This document shows positions 4,587-48,580 of a DNA stretch of 48,580 nt, piece after piece. The notes beneath the pieces were generated by a model. The model was not told the origin of the DNA. It ran no database searches and was given only the letters and a program-made list of their open reading frames with translations. Position numbers and translations under genes: made by a program. The stretch spans positions 1 to 48,580 of the forward strand of contig JAURJQ010000006.1 of assembly GCA_030832185.1 (NCBI GenBank), read 5' to 3'. This DNA comes from Chitinophagales bacterium. GTDB lineage: Bacteria; Bacteroidota; Bacteroidia; Chitinophagales; JADJOU01. Position 1 is the stretch's first letter. Each line of letters begins with the position of its first letter.

Positions 4587-5942
4587 TTATCTGACAACTT
4601 CCCAATGACCGCCTTTGGAGGGACCGACTCGTTTAATAAATCCCATTATTTTTAAATTTTCTAAATCTCGTTGCGCTGTTCTCTCTGTGATTTCTAACAA
4701 TTCTGAAATTTGTTTTGCGGATATTTTTTTATCTCTTAATATTAGCTTGAGTATCTCTTGCGACCTTTTTTCTACGACATTTTCTACGACATTTTCTACG
4801 ACATTTTCTACGACATATGTATTCACCGCAGCATAGACTGTCACTAGAAATCCTTCTCCTTGCAGCTTAAACTCTGGCAAAGGCAAGTTTTCTTCTTTGA
4901 AATAGTTGATGATACGACCGATTCCTGAGCCATATTTTTCTATCCAGCCTAAGTTTTTAAAAAACTCAGCAATCGCTTTGTTTCGAGGGGTAGATTTATA
5001 GTTATTCTCCTTGAGATCTTGAATGCTTATGTTTTCTGGCAACCTTCCCGGATTGTAAAATTCAATTTTGTCATTAAATACTTTGACCACAGAGTCTGAA
5101 CTTGAACGATAGTCTCTATGAATAATCATATTCAATACGATTTCGCGAATCGCTTCCAATGGATACTGCCACTTCTGCACATTTTCAGCATCTCCAGTGA
5201 TGATGAGAGCCAGGTTAATATGCTTTTTGACAAAATCCAGGACTTGATCTACCTGCGTAATCAAATCCGACTGTGTACGAGCTGTATCTTTGATTGTAAT
5301 ATTATCTTGAAACCTTCCCAGCTCTATAGTTGTAGCTATAGAATGTCTTTTTTTGAACATTAAAAATGCCGCATTCGTTGGCCTTTCTTCCCGTATTAAA
5401 TCATTTTTTACTAAAAAGGATATCGGCGGCTCCGCTATCGTTTTGCCTCGACTCTTCATACTCTCCATACAATGCTGCACCAACTCTAGAGATAAATCCT
5501 CTACACTATGAATAGGGTCAGGGTAGCTATCCCAGCTGGAATTAAGAGATTGTAAATGTAGATTGGCTACCTCAGAAGCTGTTAAAACATGGTTTGAATT
5601 AGCCACTCGCTTAAAATACCTCCCTTTAAAACTGACTGGCTTTATAGGGTATTCATGAATTTTCATAACCACGATTGTCTTGTCATCTTTTTCTACAATG
5701 TCCACATCGGGAATAAGTACAGGTGTCGTTTTATTCTTGATTTCATTAATCCATTCAGAAACCGTTTCCCTTCCCATACGCAATCCCAGAATATCTCCAT
5801 TGTCCGCGACACCTATATAAACTGAGCCTCCATGAGCATTGGCAAAGGCTACTAAAGTTTCTATAGTTTCATTGCCAAAGCTAGCCTTGAACTCTACTAT
5901 CTGACTCTCGCCTAATTCTATAATAGATTGATGACTCATCAT
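4587..5942 (-). CDS. AlbA_2 (Schlafen-like) / HATPase_c_4 / winged-helix protein, second copy
   Basis: A 451-residue protein with the same architecture as the gene at 2214-3572. AlbA_2 (about 8-125) shows QIVEFKASFGN and FANAHGGSVYIGVADNGDILG. The GHKL-like part (about 235-355) shows EAIREIVLNMIIHRDYRS and YGSGIGRI. The C-terminal winged helix (about 392-450) ends GGHWEVVR. The linker before the winged helix is a Val-Val-Glu-Asn repeat from a perfect 12-bp tandem repeat. The start codon falls inside a repeat that also follows the intact antiterminator gene, so the gene seems to have been joined precisely behind an antiterminator 3' end. Function unknown; regulation or defence are guesses from the family. 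Confidence 0.82.
   Translation of the reverse strand: MMSHQSIIELGESQIVEFKASFGNETIETLVAFANAHGGSVYIGVADNGDILGLRMGRETVSEWINEIKNKTTPVLIPDVDIVEKDDKTIVVMKIHEYPIKPVSFKGRYFKRVANSNHVLTASEVANLHLQSLNSSWDSYPDPIHSVEDLSLELVQHCMESMKSRGKTIAEPPISFLVKNDLIREERPTNAAFLMFKKRHSIATTIELGRFQDNITIKDTARTQSDLITQVDQVLDFVKKHINLALIITGDAENVQKWQYPLEAIREIVLNMIIHRDYRSSSDSVVKVFNDKIEFYNPGRLPENISIQDLKENNYKSTPRNKAIAEFFKNLGWIEKYGSGIGRIINYFKEENLPLPEFKLQGEGFLVTVYAAVNTYVVENVVENVVENVVEKRSQEILKLILRDKKISAKQISELLEITERTAQRDLENLKIMGFIKRVGPSKGGHWEVVR
4769..4816. repeat. 12-bp intragenic tandem repeat (VVEN linker)
   Basis: Four perfect copies of TTTCTACGACAT encode VVEN four times, at the same place in the protein (between ATPase-like domain and winged helix) where the paralogue at 2214 carries an unrelated DLNK repeat. 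Confidence 0.95.
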
Positions 5943-20138: not shown

Positions 20139-20744
20139 CTAAGACTCCTTATACTTTCGCATAAAAATTAGTAGTAATACTAATCCAACAGAAATGCAGG
20201 CATCCGCTACATTAAATATGGCGTTGAAAAAAGAGAATGGCTGACCATTAGGAAGTATCCCATCATAGAGTGGAAAATAAAACATATCGACTACCTTCCC
20301 CTGCAACAGTGGTGCATAACCTGTGCCAAATGGGACAAATTGAGCGACGTTTCGTATGTGAAAATCGCTTGCTGAAAAAATAGCTCCATAGCATATACCG
20401 TCTATCACATTGCCTATAGCGCCAGCTAATATAAGAACTCCAGCGATGAGCAGCCCTTTATGCTCCTTTTTTTGAATATTTTTATATAAGAAGAAAGCAA
20501 TAACAATAGAAAATATAATACGGAATACAGATAAACAATACTTACCAATAGTTCCACCCCATTCCATACCAAAGGCTACTCCGGGATTCTCCGTAAATAC
20601 AAGGCGAAACCAAGTAGGAATAACCATGACTTCTTCGCCAAACTGGAAGTGGGTTTTCACATAGATTTTAGATGCTTGATCAATAAATATTAGTAGGATA
20701 ACTACAAACCAATAAATCCATGTATTTGATTTTTTATATTCCAT
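20139..20744 (-). CDS. lspA: Lipoprotein signal peptidase (signal peptidase II)
   Basis: Inner-membrane aspartic protease that removes the signal peptide from prolipoproteins after lipid attachment. The protein has 201 residues and four membrane spans, with the family blocks DQASKIYVK (about 22-30), TENPGVAFG (about 51-59), AGAIGNVIDGICYG (first catalytic Asp; the usual Arg after it is Gly) and FNVADACISVG (second catalytic Asp). It follows the DksA-like gene and ileS on the same strand, the common ileS-traR/dksA-lspA order of Bacteroidota, with a 100-base gap. Confidence 0.95.
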   Translation of the reverse strand: MEYKKSNTWIYWFVVILLIFIDQASKIYVKTHFQFGEEVMVIPTWFRLVFTENPGVAFGMEWGGTIGKYCLSVFRIIFSIVIAFFLYKNIQKKEHKGLLIAGVLILAGAIGNVIDGICYGAIFSASDFHIRNVAQFVPFGTGYAPLLQGKVVDMFYFPLYDGILPNGQPFSFFNAIFNVADACISVGLVLLLIFMRKYKES

Positions 20745-20845: not shown

Positions 20846-22315
20846 TCATCTCTTCTTCACACCTATTTTCGCCTCCATACTCAGGGTAGCATGCGGTACC
20901 GCCGCCAATCGTTTCTTATCGATAAGATTACCTGTCATTCGACAGATACCATAGGTTTTATTCTCTATTCTAATGAGGGCACCTTCTAGATTCTGTATAA
21001 ACTTGACTTGACGATTAGCCATAGCGCTCAAATGTTCTTTATCATTTGTGTGCCCACCATCTTCCATACCAGAAAACTTAATATCATCATCATTCATTTC
21101 GCTCTCTTTCATCTGATCTTGATAGAAGTTTAGTTCCTCTCTAGCCTCTGCTAACTTTCTATTGATGATTGTTCTAAATTCATTGAGCTCAGCATCAGAA
21201 AACCTGGTTCGTCCTATAATAGGCAATTTATAATTATCATAGTTTTCTTCTTGACTTTCTGTTGGAGTCTCATAATTATTTTTGATTTCCTGGATTTTCT
21301 TTCGACGCAAAACCATCTTTGCGACCTTATCTTCTTGAGTAGGTTTAATCACTGGTTTTTTACTAGATGGTTTGGCATTCACTATTGGAGCTGCAATTTT
21401 AACCACCTTGCCAGGAGTGGGCTTAGCCGCAGGTTTTTTAGCTATTCGCTTCACTGGCTTGGCAGGAGCTACCTTGGATGACACTACTTTTTTTACAGCA
21501 GACTTTGGAGCTAACTTTTTAGGAGCTGCTTTAACTACTGCCTTCTTCGCTGCAGGCTTTAGTATTGGCTTTTTTGCGGCAGGTTTTGGAGTTGCTTTTT
21601 TAGATACTGGTTTAGCTGATACTTTTTTAGACACAACCTTAGCTACTAATTTCTTAGATACTGCTTTTGCCACTGGCTTCTTTAAAGCAGGTTTAGACGC
21701 TGCCTTTTTAACTACAGCTTTAGATGCCAGTTTTTTTGCAGGTGCCTTAGCTACTAATTTCTTAGATACTGCTTTTGCCACTAGCTTCTTTGCAACAGGT
21801 TTAGACGCTACCTTTTTCGATACAGCTTTAGATGCCAGTTTTTTTACAGTTGCCTTAGCTACTAATTTCTTAGATACTGCTTTTGCCACTAGCTTCTTTG
21901 CAGCAGGTTTAGACGCTACCTTTTTAACTACAGCTTTAGATGCCAGTTTTTTTGCAGGTGCCTTAGCTACTAATTTCTTAGATACTGCTTTTGCCACTAG
22001 CTTCTTTGTAGCAGGTTTAGACGCTACCTTTTTCGCTACTGGCTTAGATACTACCTTTTTAGAAGCTGGTTTAGATGCCGGTTTTTTTACAGGTGCCTTA
22101 GCTACTAATTTCTTAGATACTGCTTTTGCCACTGGCTTCTTTGCAACAGGTTTCGACGCTACCTTTTTCGCTACTGGTTTAGATACTGCCTTTTTAGAAG
22201 TTGATTTAGCCAACGCTTTTTTTACTGAAGGCTTAGTTGCCGATTTTTTCGCTTCTGGTTTCGCACTTACTTTTTTAGGTGCTGGCTTAGTTGATTTTTT
22301 TGTCTTTTTTGCCAT
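20846..22315 (-). CDS. DksA/TraR-like protein with a long Lys/Ala/Pro-rich histone-H1-like N-terminal tail
   Basis: A 489-residue protein in two parts. Residues 1 to about 335 are almost only K, A, P, S, V and L in units such as KKLVAKAVSKK and KKVASKPVAKK, like histone H1 or AlgP tails, and should bind nucleic acid or be disordered. Residues about 365-489 are a DksA/TraR domain: IIGRTRFSDAELNEFRTII, a coiled-coil hairpin, then YGICRMTGNLIDKKRLAAVP. Only one Cys of the zinc-binding set is left (CxxT), as in many Bacteroidota members, so the zinc finger is probably not metal-bound. Five bases separate it from ileS, so they should share a transcript. In Bacteroidota the short DksA-like domain alone is usual; the tail here is very long. 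Confidence 0.85.
   Translation of the reverse strand: MAKKTKKSTKPAPKKVSAKPEAKKSATKPSVKKALAKSTSKKAVSKPVAKKVASKPVAKKPVAKAVSKKLVAKAPVKKPASKPASKKVVSKPVAKKVASKPATKKLVAKAVSKKLVAKAPAKKLASKAVVKKVASKPAAKKLVAKAVSKKLVAKATVKKLASKAVSKKVASKPVAKKLVAKAVSKKLVAKAPAKKLASKAVVKKAASKPALKKPVAKAVSKKLVAKVVSKKVSAKPVSKKATPKPAAKKPILKPAAKKAVVKAAPKKLAPKSAVKKVVSSKVAPAKPVKRIAKKPAAKPTPGKVVKIAAPIVNAKPSSKKPVIKPTQEDKVAKMVLRRKKIQEIKNNYETPTESQEENYDNYKLPIIGRTRFSDAELNEFRTIINRKLAEAREELNFYQDQMKESEMNDDDIKFSGMEDGGHTNDKEHLSAMANRQVKFIQNLEGALIRIENKTYGICRMTGNLIDKKRLAAVPHATLSMEAKIGVKKR
21641..22134. repeat. 108-bp tandem repeats in the DksA-like tail
   Basis: The stretch AGCTACTAATTTCTTAGATA starts at 21641, 21749, 21857, 21965 and 22100: three steps of exactly 108 bp (36 codons) and one of 135 bp. 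Shorter KKxxAK-type units make up each period. High identity between units suggests recent slippage or recombination. Confidence 0.9.
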
Positions 22316-22320
22316 GTTTA

Positions 22321-25300
22321 TTACAATTTATAAATTTCAATTTTGGTGTTTAATTCATTTAACTCTAGCTCTAATGGCGCAGCCATCGTTGCAGAAGGTT
22401 TGATTTCATTTGCTAGAACTTCAGTAGAAATAAAGTTCGAAAACTTTTTTATCACTCTATCTAGATTCATCTCAGAAGCATAAGAAATACTTATTCTATC
22501 CGTCACATTAAAGTTTTGGTCTTTTCTATAATTTTGTACTTTATTGATTAATTCGCGCGCAATACCTTCATCTAGTAAATCTTCACTGAGACTGATATCA
22601 AGCGCTAAGGTCATTCCATTCTCAGAAGCTACTAAATAACCTGGCATATCTGATGTGGCTATTTCTATTTCTTCTAGAAGGAGTTCATAACTTCGTCCTT
22701 CGCTAATGATATCTATTTTCCCTTGTTTTTCTACTAGACCTATCTGCTCTTGATTCCAATTGGCTATTATCTTAGCTATGTCTGCCATATCCTTGCCAAG
22801 TTTCTTTCCTAGCAGTTTGAAATTGGCTTTAGCACTTTTCACAAATAAACCAGAGTTTTCATCTACATATTCAAAGTCTTTCACATTAACCTCAGCCATG
22901 ACTATATCTTCGATAGATTGATATAAGTCTTTTTCCTTATCATTCAGTATAGGGATAATCACTTTCTGCAATGGCTGACGCACTTTGATCTGCTCTTTTT
23001 TTCTCAAGGATAGAATCATAGAAGATAAATCCTGAGCTCGCTCTATTCTATGCTCTAAATTTTCATCTATCCAAGACTCATCTATAGATCCCCAGCTAGT
23101 AAGATGAATAGAAGAATGTCTCCATCTAGAATTCTCAGCGATAGCCTTATCACGGATAGAAAGCGTCAATGACTGATAGAGCCACTCACTGAAAAATGGA
23201 GCAATAGGACTCATAAGCTGCGCTATAGTAGTAAGACATTCATAGAGGGTCTCATAGGCTGCTTTCTTATCTGCGCTGACATCATTTTTCCAGAATCTGC
23301 GACGACTCAGTCTCACATACCAGTTAGATAAATTTCTATCGACAAAGGTATCTATAGATCTTGCCGCATCAGTCGGCTCATAGCTTTCCAGCGCCTCCTG
23401 CACATCTTTTTTTAGCGTATTCAGTTTAGATATTATCCATCGATCTAGCTCCGGCTTTTCTGTATGGGGAATAGTATTTTTATCATCCCATTGGAAAGCA
23501 TCTATATTGGCATAAAGCGAGAAAAAGGAATAGGTGTTATAGAGTGTTCCAAACAATTTTCGCTTAACCTCTTCGACACCATTCATATCAAATTTCAGAT
23601 TTTCCCAAGGTGCTGAATTGGAGATGATATACCAACGAATGGCATCTGCACCGTGCTTTGGAATCGCTTCCATAGGATTAATGACATTTCCTTTTCGTTT
23701 AGACATTTTCTCCCCATTTTTATCTAAGACTAAGCCATTGGAAACTACATTTTTAAATGCCGGCTGATCGAATAAAATAGTAGAGATGGTGTGCAATGTA
23801 TAGAACCATCCTCTGGTCTGATCTACCCCCTCTGCTATAAAGTCAGCTGGATAGGCGTGCTTGAATTTTTCCTGATTAGAAAACGGATAATTCCACTGTG
23901 CATATGGCATAGAGCCACTATCGAACCATACATCTATGACATCCGTTTCTCTCTTGAGCTTTATTCCATTCGCTACCAGTGTCACACGGTCTATATATGG
24001 TTTATGCAAATCTCCTTGACTAGCCCCAAAGGCCTGAATGAATTTTTCATTCTCTGCCTTCTCTTCAGCACTCAAAAGATTAGAAGCAAGTGCAAGAGCT
24101 ATATGATTCAATAAGTCCTGCTGCCCGCTGACGCAGATCTGCTCGTCGCCCTCTTCGGCTACCCATATAGGCAGAGGAATACCCCAAAAACGTGAGCGCG
24201 ATAAGTTCCAATCTTGAATATTTTCCAACCAATGACCGAATCGTCCTGTACCTGTGCTTTCTGGCTTCCAATTGATTTTTTTATTATTGGTTATCAGCTG
24301 CTCTTTCACTGCCGTGGTGCGAATAAACCAACTATCCATAGGGTAATAAATCACAGGTTTATCTGTGCGCCAGCAATGTGGGTAACTATGCACATACTTC
24401 TGGACATTAAAGGCTAGTCCCTTCGTTTTGAGTTCAATGGCTATATCTACATCCGGACTTTTATAATCAGCTTCATTTCTATAATCTTTAACAAATCTTC
24501 CCGACAGGAAGCCCAAGCCGTCTATAAATTTTCCCTCGCTATCCACCATGGTTAAACTTCCGACTCCATTTTCTTTGGCCACTTTACTATCATCAGCTCC
24601 AAAAGAAGGCGCTGTGTGCACTATACCAGTGCCATCAGTCGTCGTAACGAAATCTCCTGTGATCACTTGAAATGATTTCCCTTCGATAGCATTTGCTCCA
24701 TTAACTTCAAAAGGCAAAAGCTGATTATACTCAACACCTTTTAGTTCTGAACCTACAGCTAATCCTGCTATGCAATAGGTCATTGTCTTTTCATCGATTA
24801 CTAGTTCGTCGATAGAAGAAACTTCTTGTTCAGGTTTAAACCACTTGGCTAGAAGCTCTTTGGCTAGAATGAAATTTTGAGGCGACTTAGTGTAAGGATT
24901 GAAGGAAGTGACTAATACATATTCTATTTTGGGCCCTAATGTAAGTGCTGTATTGGAAGGCAGTGTCCATGGCGTGGTAGTCCATGCTAAGAAATGTGCA
25001 GTTTCTATATTGGACTTAAACGCTGCATTTACCTTATTTATACAACAGGATTTCACTTCAAAACATGCTACAATCGAAGTATCCGTTACATCCCGATAGG
25101 AACCTGGTTGATTCAATTCATGCGTACTCAAGCCAGTACCCGCTGCAGGTGAATATGGCTGAATAGTATAACCCTTATACATGAGATTCTTTTTATAAAT
25201 CTCTGAAATAATATACCAAACTGATTCTATATACCCATTCTCAAACGTCATATAGGGGTGATCTAAATCTAACCAAAAACCCATTATTCTTGTCAGATCG

Positions 25301-25695
25301 TCCCACTCTGACTTAAACTGCATGACCGTTTCACGGCATTTATTATTATATTCTTCAACGGTAATTTTTTTTCCTATATCCTCTTTGGTTATTCCTAACT
25401 CCTGCTCTACTTTCAGCTCTACTGGCAGACCATGAGTATCCCAGCCTCCCTTGCGCTCTACTCTATATCCCTGGAGTGTTTTGTATCTACAGAAAATATC
25501 TTTGATAGCACGACCTACTACATGATGAATGCCAGGTAGGCCATTGGCAGAGGGCGGTCCTTCATAGAAAACATAAGCATTATCTTCAGGTCTTGAATCG
25601 ATCGATTTCTGGAATATAGCTTCCCTCTCCCAAAACTGAAGAACCTCGCTTTCTATCTCTGGCAAGTTTAAGCCTTTAAATTCCTTGTAAATCAT
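22321..25695 (-). CDS. ileS: Isoleucine--tRNA ligase
   Basis: Class I synthetase that charges tRNA-Ile, 1124 residues (the long, eukaryote-like IleRS2 class). The N-terminal signature reads PPSANGLPGIHH, giving GIHH at residues 55-58 where HIGH/HxGH is usual. WDTHGLPVE and WTTTPWTLPSNT (editing domain) are present, and KMSKR follows at about residues 663-667, with DVWFDSGSMPYAQW before it. The C-terminal anticodon-binding domain is complete. The DksA-like gene follows after five bases, then lspA. The GxHH swap is reported for a group of IleRS2 enzymes with extreme mupirocin tolerance; whether this enzyme shares it is inference. Confidence 0.97.
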   Translation of the reverse strand: MIYKEFKGLNLPEIESEVLQFWEREAIFQKSIDSRPEDNAYVFYEGPPSANGLPGIHHVVGRAIKDIFCRYKTLQGYRVERKGGWDTHGLPVELKVEQELGITKEDIGKKITVEEYNNKCRETVMQFKSEWDDLTRIMGFWLDLDHPYMTFENGYIESVWYIISEIYKKNLMYKGYTIQPYSPAAGTGLSTHELNQPGSYRDVTDTSIVACFEVKSCCINKVNAAFKSNIETAHFLAWTTTPWTLPSNTALTLGPKIEYVLVTSFNPYTKSPQNFILAKELLAKWFKPEQEVSSIDELVIDEKTMTYCIAGLAVGSELKGVEYNQLLPFEVNGANAIEGKSFQVITGDFVTTTDGTGIVHTAPSFGADDSKVAKENGVGSLTMVDSEGKFIDGLGFLSGRFVKDYRNEADYKSPDVDIAIELKTKGLAFNVQKYVHSYPHCWRTDKPVIYYPMDSWFIRTTAVKEQLITNNKKINWKPESTGTGRFGHWLENIQDWNLSRSRFWGIPLPIWVAEEGDEQICVSGQQDLLNHIALALASNLLSAEEKAENEKFIQAFGASQGDLHKPYIDRVTLVANGIKLKRETDVIDVWFDSGSMPYAQWNYPFSNQEKFKHAYPADFIAEGVDQTRGWFYTLHTISTILFDQPAFKNVVSNGLVLDKNGEKMSKRKGNVINPMEAIPKHGADAIRWYIISNSAPWENLKFDMNGVEEVKRKLFGTLYNTYSFFSLYANIDAFQWDDKNTIPHTEKPELDRWIISKLNTLKKDVQEALESYEPTDAARSIDTFVDRNLSNWYVRLSRRRFWKNDVSADKKAAYETLYECLTTIAQLMSPIAPFFSEWLYQSLTLSIRDKAIAENSRWRHSSIHLTSWGSIDESWIDENLEHRIERAQDLSSMILSLRKKEQIKVRQPLQKVIIPILNDKEKDLYQSIEDIVMAEVNVKDFEYVDENSGLFVKSAKANFKLLGKKLGKDMADIAKIIANWNQEQIGLVEKQGKIDIISEGRSYELLLEEIEIATSDMPGYLVASENGMTLALDISLSEDLLDEGIARELINKVQNYRKDQNFNVTDRISISYASEMNLDRVIKKFSNFISTEVLANEIKPSATMAAPLELELNELNTKIEIYKL

Positions 25696-46392: not shown

Positions 46393-48580
46393 ATGAAAAA
46401 GCAATTTGCTAGAGTAAACAAGTTGTTAGCATGCTTTTCATTACTAATTATTTTTTTTAATGTCCGTGAGACTGCAGCGCAGTCAATATCAAATACTAAA
46501 TATAAAGGTATAAATTCCGGAATTCATTTTTGTATAGGTTCTTCAGATACGGTTACTTTTGACACCACAGGTGTGTTTACTGGCACGGTTTTTAGAGTGG
46601 AGTTGTCAGATAGTGCTGGCGCATTTGGTACGCCGATAAATCTTGGCTCAGGGAGTAGTACTAAAATTGCCATAATCCTGCCGGCTTTACCATTATCAAA
46701 TAATTATTCTATCCGTGTTGTACGAAATTCAACACCAGCCGTTATAGGCGATACTATAAAGTTCATCACTCTTACAAAACCTACACCCAGCTTTACATTC
46801 ACCAATAACAATTCCTGCCCTCGCACTCCCATAAGTTTTACGAGTACGTCTTCGCCTTTTGCTGGATCAGGTCCTTTGACTTATGCTTGGAACTTAAATG
46901 CAGCTGCTACTCCATCTAGCAGTACTTTAGCAAATCCAGGTGGAGTCATTTATCCTCCTACTATTGGAAATGGATCAACAAACTATTCGGTTAAATTATT
47001 AGTGACAGATATATACGGATGTAAGGATAGTATATCTCAAAATATAACTGTGAGACATAAACCTAAAGCTAATTTGGTTATTGACCTGACTACAACTCCA
47101 AATTTTTCATCTGTAGGTCCGGACACGTTTACAAAATGTGGCGCTACTAGTCCATTTATCTTAACTGTTAACAATGATAGTTTAACATATACGAATTATT
47201 TGATTAAATGGGGAGATACCACCAGTAATTATGATACTTCAGTATCTCCGGCTAGTGTATCACATTCCTATAGTTTTATTGGGAAGCGAAATTTGACTCA
47301 TGTCGTTACAAATAGCAATGGCTGCAAGGATACTCAAAATATTACTGTCTATATCGGATCTAATCCTTCCATATCTATGCCCGCTCCGGGGAATACGACA
47401 CAAATATGTGCTCCTCAATCTTTTTCATTTAGTTTATCAGGATTTTCAGGCAATACTCCTGGAACTTCATATAGAATACAAAGCCAAGATAAAGGTACCG
47501 ATACGATTTTTCAACATCCTCCCCCAAATGTTTTTAATAAAACATACTCTAATAATTCTTGCGGATTTACGGCCCCTTCTTACTCAAATTCATATTACCT
47601 TAGAATTACAGCATTCAATGCATGTGGTTCTTCTACTCAGACATTAGAACCCATTCAGATTTCTACAAAACCGAAAGCAAATTTTAGCATATCCCCTGAC
47701 ACAGCAGTTTGCGTAAACAATAATTTGACTTTTACCAATACCTCTATTCGAGGACGTAGCGTTCCTAATACCAATGCATGTGATACTTCTGGTATCATAC
47801 GATGGGCAATAACGCCTTCTACTGGCCATACTGTAACTACAGGTGGTGTAGGAACCAACGTTATTACTGTTAGATTTAATACTCCGGGTACCTACCAAAT
47901 AAGATTAATTCAATACTTTCCTTCATCAATATGTAGTAATGATACAATTATAAAAACCATTATAGTAAAGGATACAAGTCGTAAAGACAGTTTCCGAACG
48001 ATTTGCCGTAACAAGCCAATCGTGTTTAATGGCCAGACTTTAAGTACTTCTGGTATCTATCGAGATACCTTCGTTAATTCGAGGGGTTGTGATAGCTTCC
48101 TTGTTCTTAACTTAACGGTCATAGATACAACTCGCAAAGATAGTTTCTTGACAATTTGCCGCTATCAGCCGATTGTCTTCAATGGTATAATCCGAAATAC
48201 TTCGGGAGTCTATCGAGATACCTTTGTCAATGCCAGAGGTTGCGATAGCCTTCTCGTGCTTACCTTAACGGTGAATGATAGTTCTCGCAAAGACAGCTTC
48301 CGAACGATATGCCGCAATAGGCCGGTTGTCTTCAATGGTCTTACCCTCAATACAACGGGAGTCTATCGAGACACCTTCGTCAATGCCAGGGGTTGCGATA
48401 GCTTCTTGGTACTTACCTTAACGGTGATTGATACGACTCGCAAAGACAGTTTCCGAACGATATGCCGCAATAGGCCGGTTGTCTTCAATGGACAGACATT
48501 AAATACTTCTGGGATCTATAGAGATACCTTCGTTAATTCGAGAGGTTGCGACAGCTTCTTATATTTAATTTTGACAGTCA
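46393..48580 (+). CDS. Large secreted PKD/repeat protein, 3' end outside window
   Basis: The frame is open from ATG 46393 to the last base (729 codons seen) with no stop, so the protein is larger than the window shows. A signal peptide is plausible (MKKQFARVNKLLACFSLL ... AAQS). PKD-like units follow, each with a conserved Cys: HFCIGSSDTVTFDT, NNSCPRTPISFTSTS, TKCGATSPFILTV, QICAPQSFSF and AVCVNNNLTFTN; NITV-R-HKPKA and STKPKANFSI join them. From 47971 the sequence changes to 51-residue repeats. T9SS export is likely from the neighbours, but the sorting domain would lie outside the window. No strong promoter seen. Confidence 0.85.
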   Translation, partial: MKKQFARVNKLLACFSLLIIFFNVRETAAQSISNTKYKGINSGIHFCIGSSDTVTFDTTGVFTGTVFRVELSDSAGAFGTPINLGSGSSTKIAIILPALPLSNNYSIRVVRNSTPAVIGDTIKFITLTKPTPSFTFTNNNSCPRTPISFTSTSSPFAGSGPLTYAWNLNAAATPSSSTLANPGGVIYPPTIGNGSTNYSVKLLVTDIYGCKDSISQNITVRHKPKANLVIDLTTTPNFSSVGPDTFTKCGATSPFILTVNNDSLTYTNYLIKWGDTTSNYDTSVSPASVSHSYSFIGKRNLTHVVTNSNGCKDTQNITVYIGSNPSISMPAPGNTTQICAPQSFSFSLSGFSGNTPGTSYRIQSQDKGTDTIFQHPPPNVFNKTYSNNSCGFTAPSYSNSYYLRITAFNACGSSTQTLEPIQISTKPKANFSISPDTAVCVNNNLTFTNTSIRGRSVPNTNACDTSGIIRWAITPSTGHTVTTGGVGTNVITVRFNTPGTYQIRLIQYFPSSICSNDTIIKTIIVKDTSRKDSFRTICRNKPIVFNGQTLSTSGIYRDTFVNSRGCDSFLVLNLTVIDTTRKDSFLTICRYQPIVFNGIIRNTSGVYRDTFVNARGCDSLLVLTLTVNDSSRKDSFRTICRNRPVVFNGLTLNTTGVYRDTFVNARGCDSFLVLTLTVIDTTRKDSFRTICRNRPVVFNGQTLNTSGIYRDTFVNSRGCDSFLYLILTV
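47971..48580. repeat. 153-bp tandem repeats in the large secreted protein
   Basis: Four units start at 47971, 48124, 48277 and 48430, exactly 153 bp (51 codons) apart; the last is cut two bases short by the window edge. Each encodes the pattern D-x-x-RKDSF, TICR, VFNG, a YRDTFVN block, RGCDS and LTV, with conserved Cys 12 and Cys 40. The array continues past the window. Confidence 0.95.

Follow-up and report, generated by a model that had tools for sequence, protein, structure and literature searches.

The window, a stretch of 48,580 nucleotides from a Chitinophagales bacterium, encodes a 489-residue protein in which a core predicted to have the DksA fold is preceded by a very long lysine-rich tail. 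This architecture suggests an RNA polymerase regulator that is tethered to DNA or to another polyanion. The reading that we favor, with a probability of about one half, is that the protein would be a zinc-independent DksA-type secondary-channel factor of the Bacteroidota, with the disordered tail serving as a non-specific tether to DNA and hence to the nucleoid; it draws on a structural model and on analogy with known proteins. The features are listed in Table 1. They bear out an earlier note on this DNA, which had described a DksA-like domain with a long Lys/Ala/Pro tail in this reading frame and had placed the gene five bases after ileS. Among the literature matches listed, which were openly licensed PMC papers, no description of a tailed DksA was found.

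Table 1. Features of the tailed dksA-like gene and its neighbors, in window coordinates
Feature	Position	Strand	Basis
Whole gene: 489-aa DksA-like protein with basic N-terminal tail	20846..22315	-	ATG start; Pfam zf-dskA_traR match
Lysine-rich tail of net charge +110, residues 1-345	21281..22315	-	Composition; low pLDDT
30 consecutive nonapeptides K-x3-KK-x3, residues 10-279	21479..22288	-	90/90 Lys in phase
108-bp higher-order repeat (four nonapeptides), 3.7 copies, 94% match	21637..22033	-	TRF
Basic helical linker, residues 327-349	21269..21337	-	Helix in full-length model
DksA-like core, residues 370-489	20849..21208	-	TIGR02420 E 4e-13; AlphaFold + Foldseek/VIA
Predicted acidic coiled-coil tip, E418-D419-G420	21056..21064	-	Model: residues 413-420 between two helices
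Former C4 zinc site: C458 kept; T461, S479, A482	20870..20944	-	81-sequence alignment
ileS	22321..25695	-	Pfam tRNA-synt_1 (PF00133); ends 5 bases upstream of the tailed-DksA ORF
lspA	20139..20744	-	Pfam Peptidase_A8 (PF01252); 101 bp downstream of the tailed-DksA ORF

Results

The core

The resemblance of the core to DksA is weak by sequence and, in the model, clear by fold. The Pfam zf-dskA_traR profile is passed marginally (25.1 bits against a gathering cut-off of 24.9) and the TIGR02420 equivalog cut-off is missed (49.6 against 115.5 bits). An AlphaFold model of the core, built from an alignment of 81 sequences, has a pLDDT of 84 and matches DksA2 of P. aeruginosa (4ijj) with a Z score of 13.7, E. 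coli DksA (1tjl) with 13.4 and polymerase-bound DksA (5vsw) with 11.8, the last at 1.6 A over 114 residues. Alignments to DksA structures span 114-118 residues, and the best match outside DksA has a Z score of 8.9. The predicted fold is thus shared with DksA and DksA2 at about 24% identity over the structural alignment. The matched chains, however, have 129-145 residues and no such tail, and they differ in the DxxDxA motif and in residues of the ppGpp site.

At the tip of the coiled coil the DxxDxA motif of DksA/TraR is literally absent, and [ED][DE]G is found instead; in the 81-sequence alignment the two acidic positions are acidic in 81 and 80 sequences and the glycine is present in 78. We take the acidic pair to correspond to D71/D74 of E. 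coli, an equivalence that depends on the alignment. From the modeled fold and the acidic tip we infer binding in the secondary channel. According to the excerpt of PMC9239242, DxxDxA is critical for TraR, and DksA2 and some other zinc-free homologues act like DksA; DksA2, which also lacks zinc, can replace functions of DksA1 in the portion of PMC9213440 that we cite.

The earlier note had remarked that the zinc ligands are mostly lost. Three of the four are, but the loss is not special to this protein: the positions read C, T, S and A in 80, 79, 79 and 80 of the 81 sequences, and because they read so across the class, zinc loss is an old class trait. The ppGpp site-2 residues of E. coli DksA are L95, K98, R129 and K139. 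The lysine at the last position is kept in all 81 aligned sequences and R129 is replaced by valine in all 81, whereas K98 is mostly His (43) or Asn (26) and is Lys in 2, and L95 is Phe in 65 and Leu in 5. Loss of R129 and K98 with retention of K139 suggests, from the alignment, that ppGpp dependence through this site is reduced or absent. Given these changes, the effect on polymerase may differ from that of E. coli DksA. The genome that contains the window, 98.95% complete, has one RelA_SpoT match and a single zf-dskA match, so that no separate canonical copy of DksA was found there.

The tail

Lysine makes up 32% of residues 1-345, followed by Ala (21%), Val (15%), Pro (10%) and Ser (9%), with 3 Glu and 1 Asp. 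Over residues 1-320 the means of 10-residue blocks give a pLDDT of 37-66 in a full-length AlphaFold model made from the single sequence; this model is poor over residues 451-489, where the core ends (blocks of 36-44), and was used for the disorder of the tail and the linker helix only. By composition and low pLDDT the tail is a lysine-rich, arginine-poor, low-complexity disordered segment of the histone H1 type. The gathering score of the Pfam HC2 profile (PF07382) is not reached (16.3 against 40 bits), and a search of the same genome for a second tail-like protein gave none at E<=0.01, although composition correction may hide matches.

The tail had been described as 335 residues made from 108-bp repeats. 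TRF does find this period, together with periods of 27, 54 and 135 bp, but the basic unit is 27 bp, or nine residues, and the 108-bp array accounts for about 132 of the 345 residues; residues 327-349 are not repeated. This linker is identical in one other locus (L003) and similar in two more (L004, L005). KK dipeptides recur at a spacing of exactly nine residues from residue 14 to residue 275, through 29 intervals without a slip, and the persistence of the lysine phase is far beyond chance. The array contains 90 lysine codons, which are not independent observations as the units share ancestry; their first and second positions are A in 180 of 180 cases and the third is A in 54 and G in 36. The six other codons of each unit show changes at first, second and third positions alike. 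As judged from the codons, this agrees with selection that keeps lysine at fixed places.

A comparison of 164 distinct tails, in a set enriched for tailed loci like the tree and synteny sets (tailed loci were fetched preferentially, and a few genomes are represented twice), gave medians of 28% Lys, 20% Ala, 13% Pro, 4% Asp plus Glu, a net charge of +48.5 and three F/W/Y/H/C residues per tail; arginine is 4.6% of Lys plus Arg. With 369 residues before the core and a net charge of +107, the tail in the window ranks second on both counts; charges are low at L024 (+13), L194 (+6), L196 (+11) and L239 (+15). The median fraction of lysine falls from 0.31 where the G+C content of the flanks is below 35% to 0.25 where it exceeds 50% (15 tails); over the same range the share of AAG rises from 0.16 to 0.57 and that of arginine stays below 6%. 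The rank correlations with flank G+C are -0.40 for lysine, 0.53 for AAG share and 0.15 for arginine share (p 0.06). Lysine is retained over arginine at flank G+C values from 30% to 65%, and this trend rules out AT-driven lysine as the sole cause.

We also looked for a nine-residue geometry conserved across lineages and did not find it. When lags of 4-15 were compared, the best lysine lag was 4 in 54 tails, 5 in 35, 8 in 21 and 9 in 7; since most other tails lack the strict nine-residue period, no particular geometry is conserved and the repeat period is lineage-specific. Relative to the closest species, omega is 0.054 for the core and 0.57 for the tail, so that the non-lysine positions of the tail are weakly constrained. 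There are 27 non-synonymous changes in 150 aligned tail codons of this pair, and lysine is present in both species at 39 of 41 aligned lysine positions. Taken with the composition, these sequence comparisons make it look as though charge and composition are kept while the sequence and length of the tail drift. Compensation between a stand-alone Hc1 and the tail is not claimed, the negative association being weak: tailed genomes are 11 of 42 Hc1-positive and 48 of 105 Hc1-negative genomes, with p 0.04 by genome and 0.17 by family, before any phylogenetic correction.

Distribution among relatives

Lysine-rich tails are common and long-lived in related bacteria and extend far beyond this one gene. 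At E<=0.001 the core was matched in 56 of 60 relatives, 144 of 148 genomes of the order, 152 of 158 of the class and 118 of 118 of the phylum. The class counts rest on 147 genomes, as 5 of the 152 that matched were not listed with an open frame. A genome of this sample was called tailed if the frame at its best match was open for at least 200 aa and untailed if it was shorter, and by this definition 59 of 147 are tailed and 88 are untailed, among the latter one (G164) with 51 residues before the core. Closer inspection verified 58 of the 59, with at least 80 residues before the core, at least 17% lysine and a net positive charge; the remaining one (L177) is cut by a contig end.

The presence of a tail is stable within families. 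Where at least two genomes were listed in the class sample, 11 families are wholly tailed, 19 wholly untailed and 1 mixed, so that 30 of 31 are uniform; the order sample contains three mixed families (f1, f18 and f21). On trees of 215 cores the minimum number of changes in tail state is 13 (FastTree) or 14 (IQ-TREE quick), and shuffling the states 100 times on the latter tree gave 55-70. Cores shorter than 100 residues, below 44% identity or identical to another were left out of the tree, and five short tails and one truncated tail were uncounted.

A scan of named genomes found at least 80 residues before the core at 37 of 80 loci, one of which is truncated at a contig end. Tails are present in the cultured Segetibacter koreensis DSM 18137, Niastella yeongjuensis DSM 17621 and Terrimonas pollutisoli, with modest net charges of +15, +25 and +32, and also at a locus of an uncultured member of the Sphingobacteriaceae (L291). 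The loci of Pedobacter, Mucilaginibacter, Sphingobacterium, Bacteroides, Parabacteroides and Phaeodactylibacter are untailed. Beyond the class, several of 10 loci from the phylum, read by eye, have lysine-rich N-terminal stretches. Since the tail recurs across the class and occurs in named isolates, both a freak unique to this genome and an artefact of metagenome assembly are ruled out.

Within the genus the core is preceded by 369, 300, 261, at least 150 (at a contig end) and 60 residues, and in one other sampled genus of the same family by 42. The shortest of the congeners (L006, from a genome that is 62% complete) has a net charge of +2 and an intact ileS beside the gene. The earlier note had held that relatives with neither a tail nor a difference in phenotype would tell against its proposal. 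Untailed taxa do exist, namely this congener and 88 of the 147 class genomes. These relatives show that the family can do without the tail; they do not show that the tail lacks a function.

Acid-tailed relatives

In family f17 the DksA-like protein is extended at its C-terminus by 72-125 residues, the last 60 of which are 28-55% Asp/Glu, at 13 of 21 loci; the loci were chosen partly for long frames, so that the fraction is no prevalence. The 13 are L087, L103, L107, L108 and L111-L119, and L119 combines the acidic C-terminal tail with a basic N-terminal tail of 268 residues. A further copy, without a tail and close to lspA, is present in at least two genomes (G021 and G133). The occurrence of basic and acidic tails on one core argues, at the level of sequence, for charged tails as a theme of this protein family.

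Neighboring genes

The genes ileS, tailed dksA-like and lspA lie on one strand. In the synteny set, where some loci have short flanks and some are repeated, ileS adjoins the gene at 104 of the 136 tailed loci and at 64 of the 94 others. The suggestion that expression is tied to the supply of translation finds this adjacency common, but gene order is its sole basis and the order is not universal: at no f7 locus fetched is either ileS or lspA near the gene. At one of these (L097:1418-2521) the tailed DksA, which has a short, mildly acidic C-terminal tail, lies beside clpC-like and fumarase-like ORFs, as named by eye. In the window an antisense open frame (21372-22403, plus strand, 343 aa) overlaps the tail; in our judgement it is probably an artefact of repeat composition.

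Discussion

With a lysine-rich, arginine-poor polycation of the H1 type on a core of predicted DksA fold, the natural reading is a coupling of polymerase to a polyanion. The coiled coil would enter the secondary channel with its acidic tip first. In the core model a helix (11-49) leads from the N-terminal end up to the tip, so that the tail would exit at the opposite, globular end and thus outside the channel. With a contour length of up to about 120 nm and charge enough for about 50 bp of DNA, the tail would then clamp promoter-flanking or nearby DNA, and might either raise the local concentration of the factor on DNA-bound polymerase or link polymerase to the nucleoid. Expansion and contraction of the repeats would alter reach and charge with lysine content kept. 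The proposal that a polymerase regulator is coupled here to chromosome packing is plausible on the modeled fold, the acidic tip and the H1-type polycation; the polymerase binding, the DNA binding and any regulatory outcome of the tailed protein are what we would expect from these features. A bolder generalization is possible but rather doubtful: that a large part of the Bacteroidia would use a DksA that is free of zinc and does not depend on ppGpp at the DksA-polymerase site. Its H1-like tail, of tunable length, would tie RNA polymerase to the nucleoid and so fuse the function of a linker histone to the machinery of transcription; in another lineage the same core would have been rewired with an acidic tail at the C-terminus, L119 having both.

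The closest parallel is CarD of Myxococcus xanthus, in which, according to the part of PMC4374960 that we cite, a polymerase-interacting regulator is joined to a disordered, basic, HMGA-like DNA-binding segment. The same excerpt states that the polymerase-binding part is weakly active alone and that the disordered domain raises its activity, that tail-less relatives (CdnL) are widespread and that the tail can be exchanged for other disordered basic domains. CarD differs in having an unrelated polymerase-binding domain, which is Tudor-like and contacts beta, and a C-terminal tail, where the present protein has a DksA-fold core and an N-terminal Lys/Ala/Pro tail, and a Pfam scan at E<=1 lists zf-dskA_traR and HC2 and no CarD_CdnL_TRCF domain. 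The tail itself resembles chlamydial Hc2, a lysine-rich low-complexity segment in which, in the excerpt of PMC2848022, repeat number varies in frame by 36-aa elements, the length of the 108-bp unit here; those elements, however, are five pentamers and a hexamer and not four nonapeptides, and there is no fusion to a DksA fold. The KPAA tails of Pseudomonas AlgP and PhaF are likewise lysine-rich and of low complexity with in-frame variation in repeat number (for AlgP, in the section of PMC9239181 cited), but they too are unfused to a DksA fold.

The main rival to a DNA tether is binding to polyphosphate, in which the tail would hold this polymer non-covalently, by lysine polyphosphate modification, and tie a polymerase factor to starvation or to granules. 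We consider this analogy unlikely to be the answer. DksA reportedly regulates polyphosphate accumulation in E. coli, to go by the title of a 2019 paper, and the genome has a PPK1 match of its own. Yet PPK1 and the tail are unassociated (matches in 49 of 59 tailed and 69 of 88 untailed genomes, p 0.53), with 10 tailed genomes lacking a match. Lysine-rich stretches bind polyphosphate (PMC12077175), and AlgP associates with granules whose spacing is perturbed by loss of its H1-like C-terminus (PMC9239181). The two proteins demonstrated to bind in the excerpt of PMC12077175 have nine lysines per 20 residues and four lysines in a row. A density of at least nine is reached by 104 of the 164 sampled tails, but the tail in the window has at most 8 in 20 residues and is without KKK.

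About as unlikely is a tether to RNA or the ribosome, or a condensate former, in which the tail would bind rRNA or nascent RNA or drive clusters of RNA polymerase. Such a role would suit a low-complexity polycation of low pLDDT with ileS as a neighbor in many relatives. However, typical RNA-binding or phase-separating segments are arginine-rich and contain aromatic residues, and these tails are arginine-poor and nearly free of aromatics. The rapid turnover of length within the genus (369, 300, 261 and 60 residues), the tail omega of 0.57 and the many relatives without a tail would all be expected if repeat slippage had produced a harmless tail without function; we nevertheless think this improbable in view of the invariant first and second positions of the lysine codons (180/180), the preference for Lys over Arg across the range of G+C, the stability at family level and the few state changes on the tree. 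It is equally improbable that an internal start gives a tail-less regulator in vivo as a second isoform. There is an in-frame ATG at codon 334, along with several GTG/TTG codons. In the 60-codon stretch that closes roughly six codons inside the core, an ATG occurs in 105 of the 164 tailed orthologues; but 48 of the 164 have no ATG after codon 20, and the methionine of codon 334 is leucine in L004 and L005. A tether to DNA is the reading that we prefer to all of these.

DksA-type control in the Bacteroidota looks little studied; in the part of a Flavobacterium study that we cite (PMC5787105), dksA comes up solely among the differentially expressed genes. Should the tail indeed hold polymerase on DNA, a single polypeptide would unite a basic regulator with the packing of the chromosome in many bacteria, and the untailed, basic-tailed and acid-tailed forms already present in nature would lend themselves to comparison.

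Other repeats occur in the window. Three GAGGGTTGAGAC-type minisatellites of 13, 20 and 33 bp (654-770, 1136-1231 and 2081-2182) flank a 23S_rRNA_IVP ORF (769-1134) and a RhuM ORF (1230-2063). Tandem repeats of 12 bp at 2409-2463 and 4768-4816 code for the four-residue repeats DLNK and VVEN in two different SLFN_AlbA_2/HATPase_c_4 regulators, just before the C-terminal HTH, in the same place with a different sequence. At 47971-48560, 153-bp tandem repeats lie in a large open frame continuing beyond the edge of the window.
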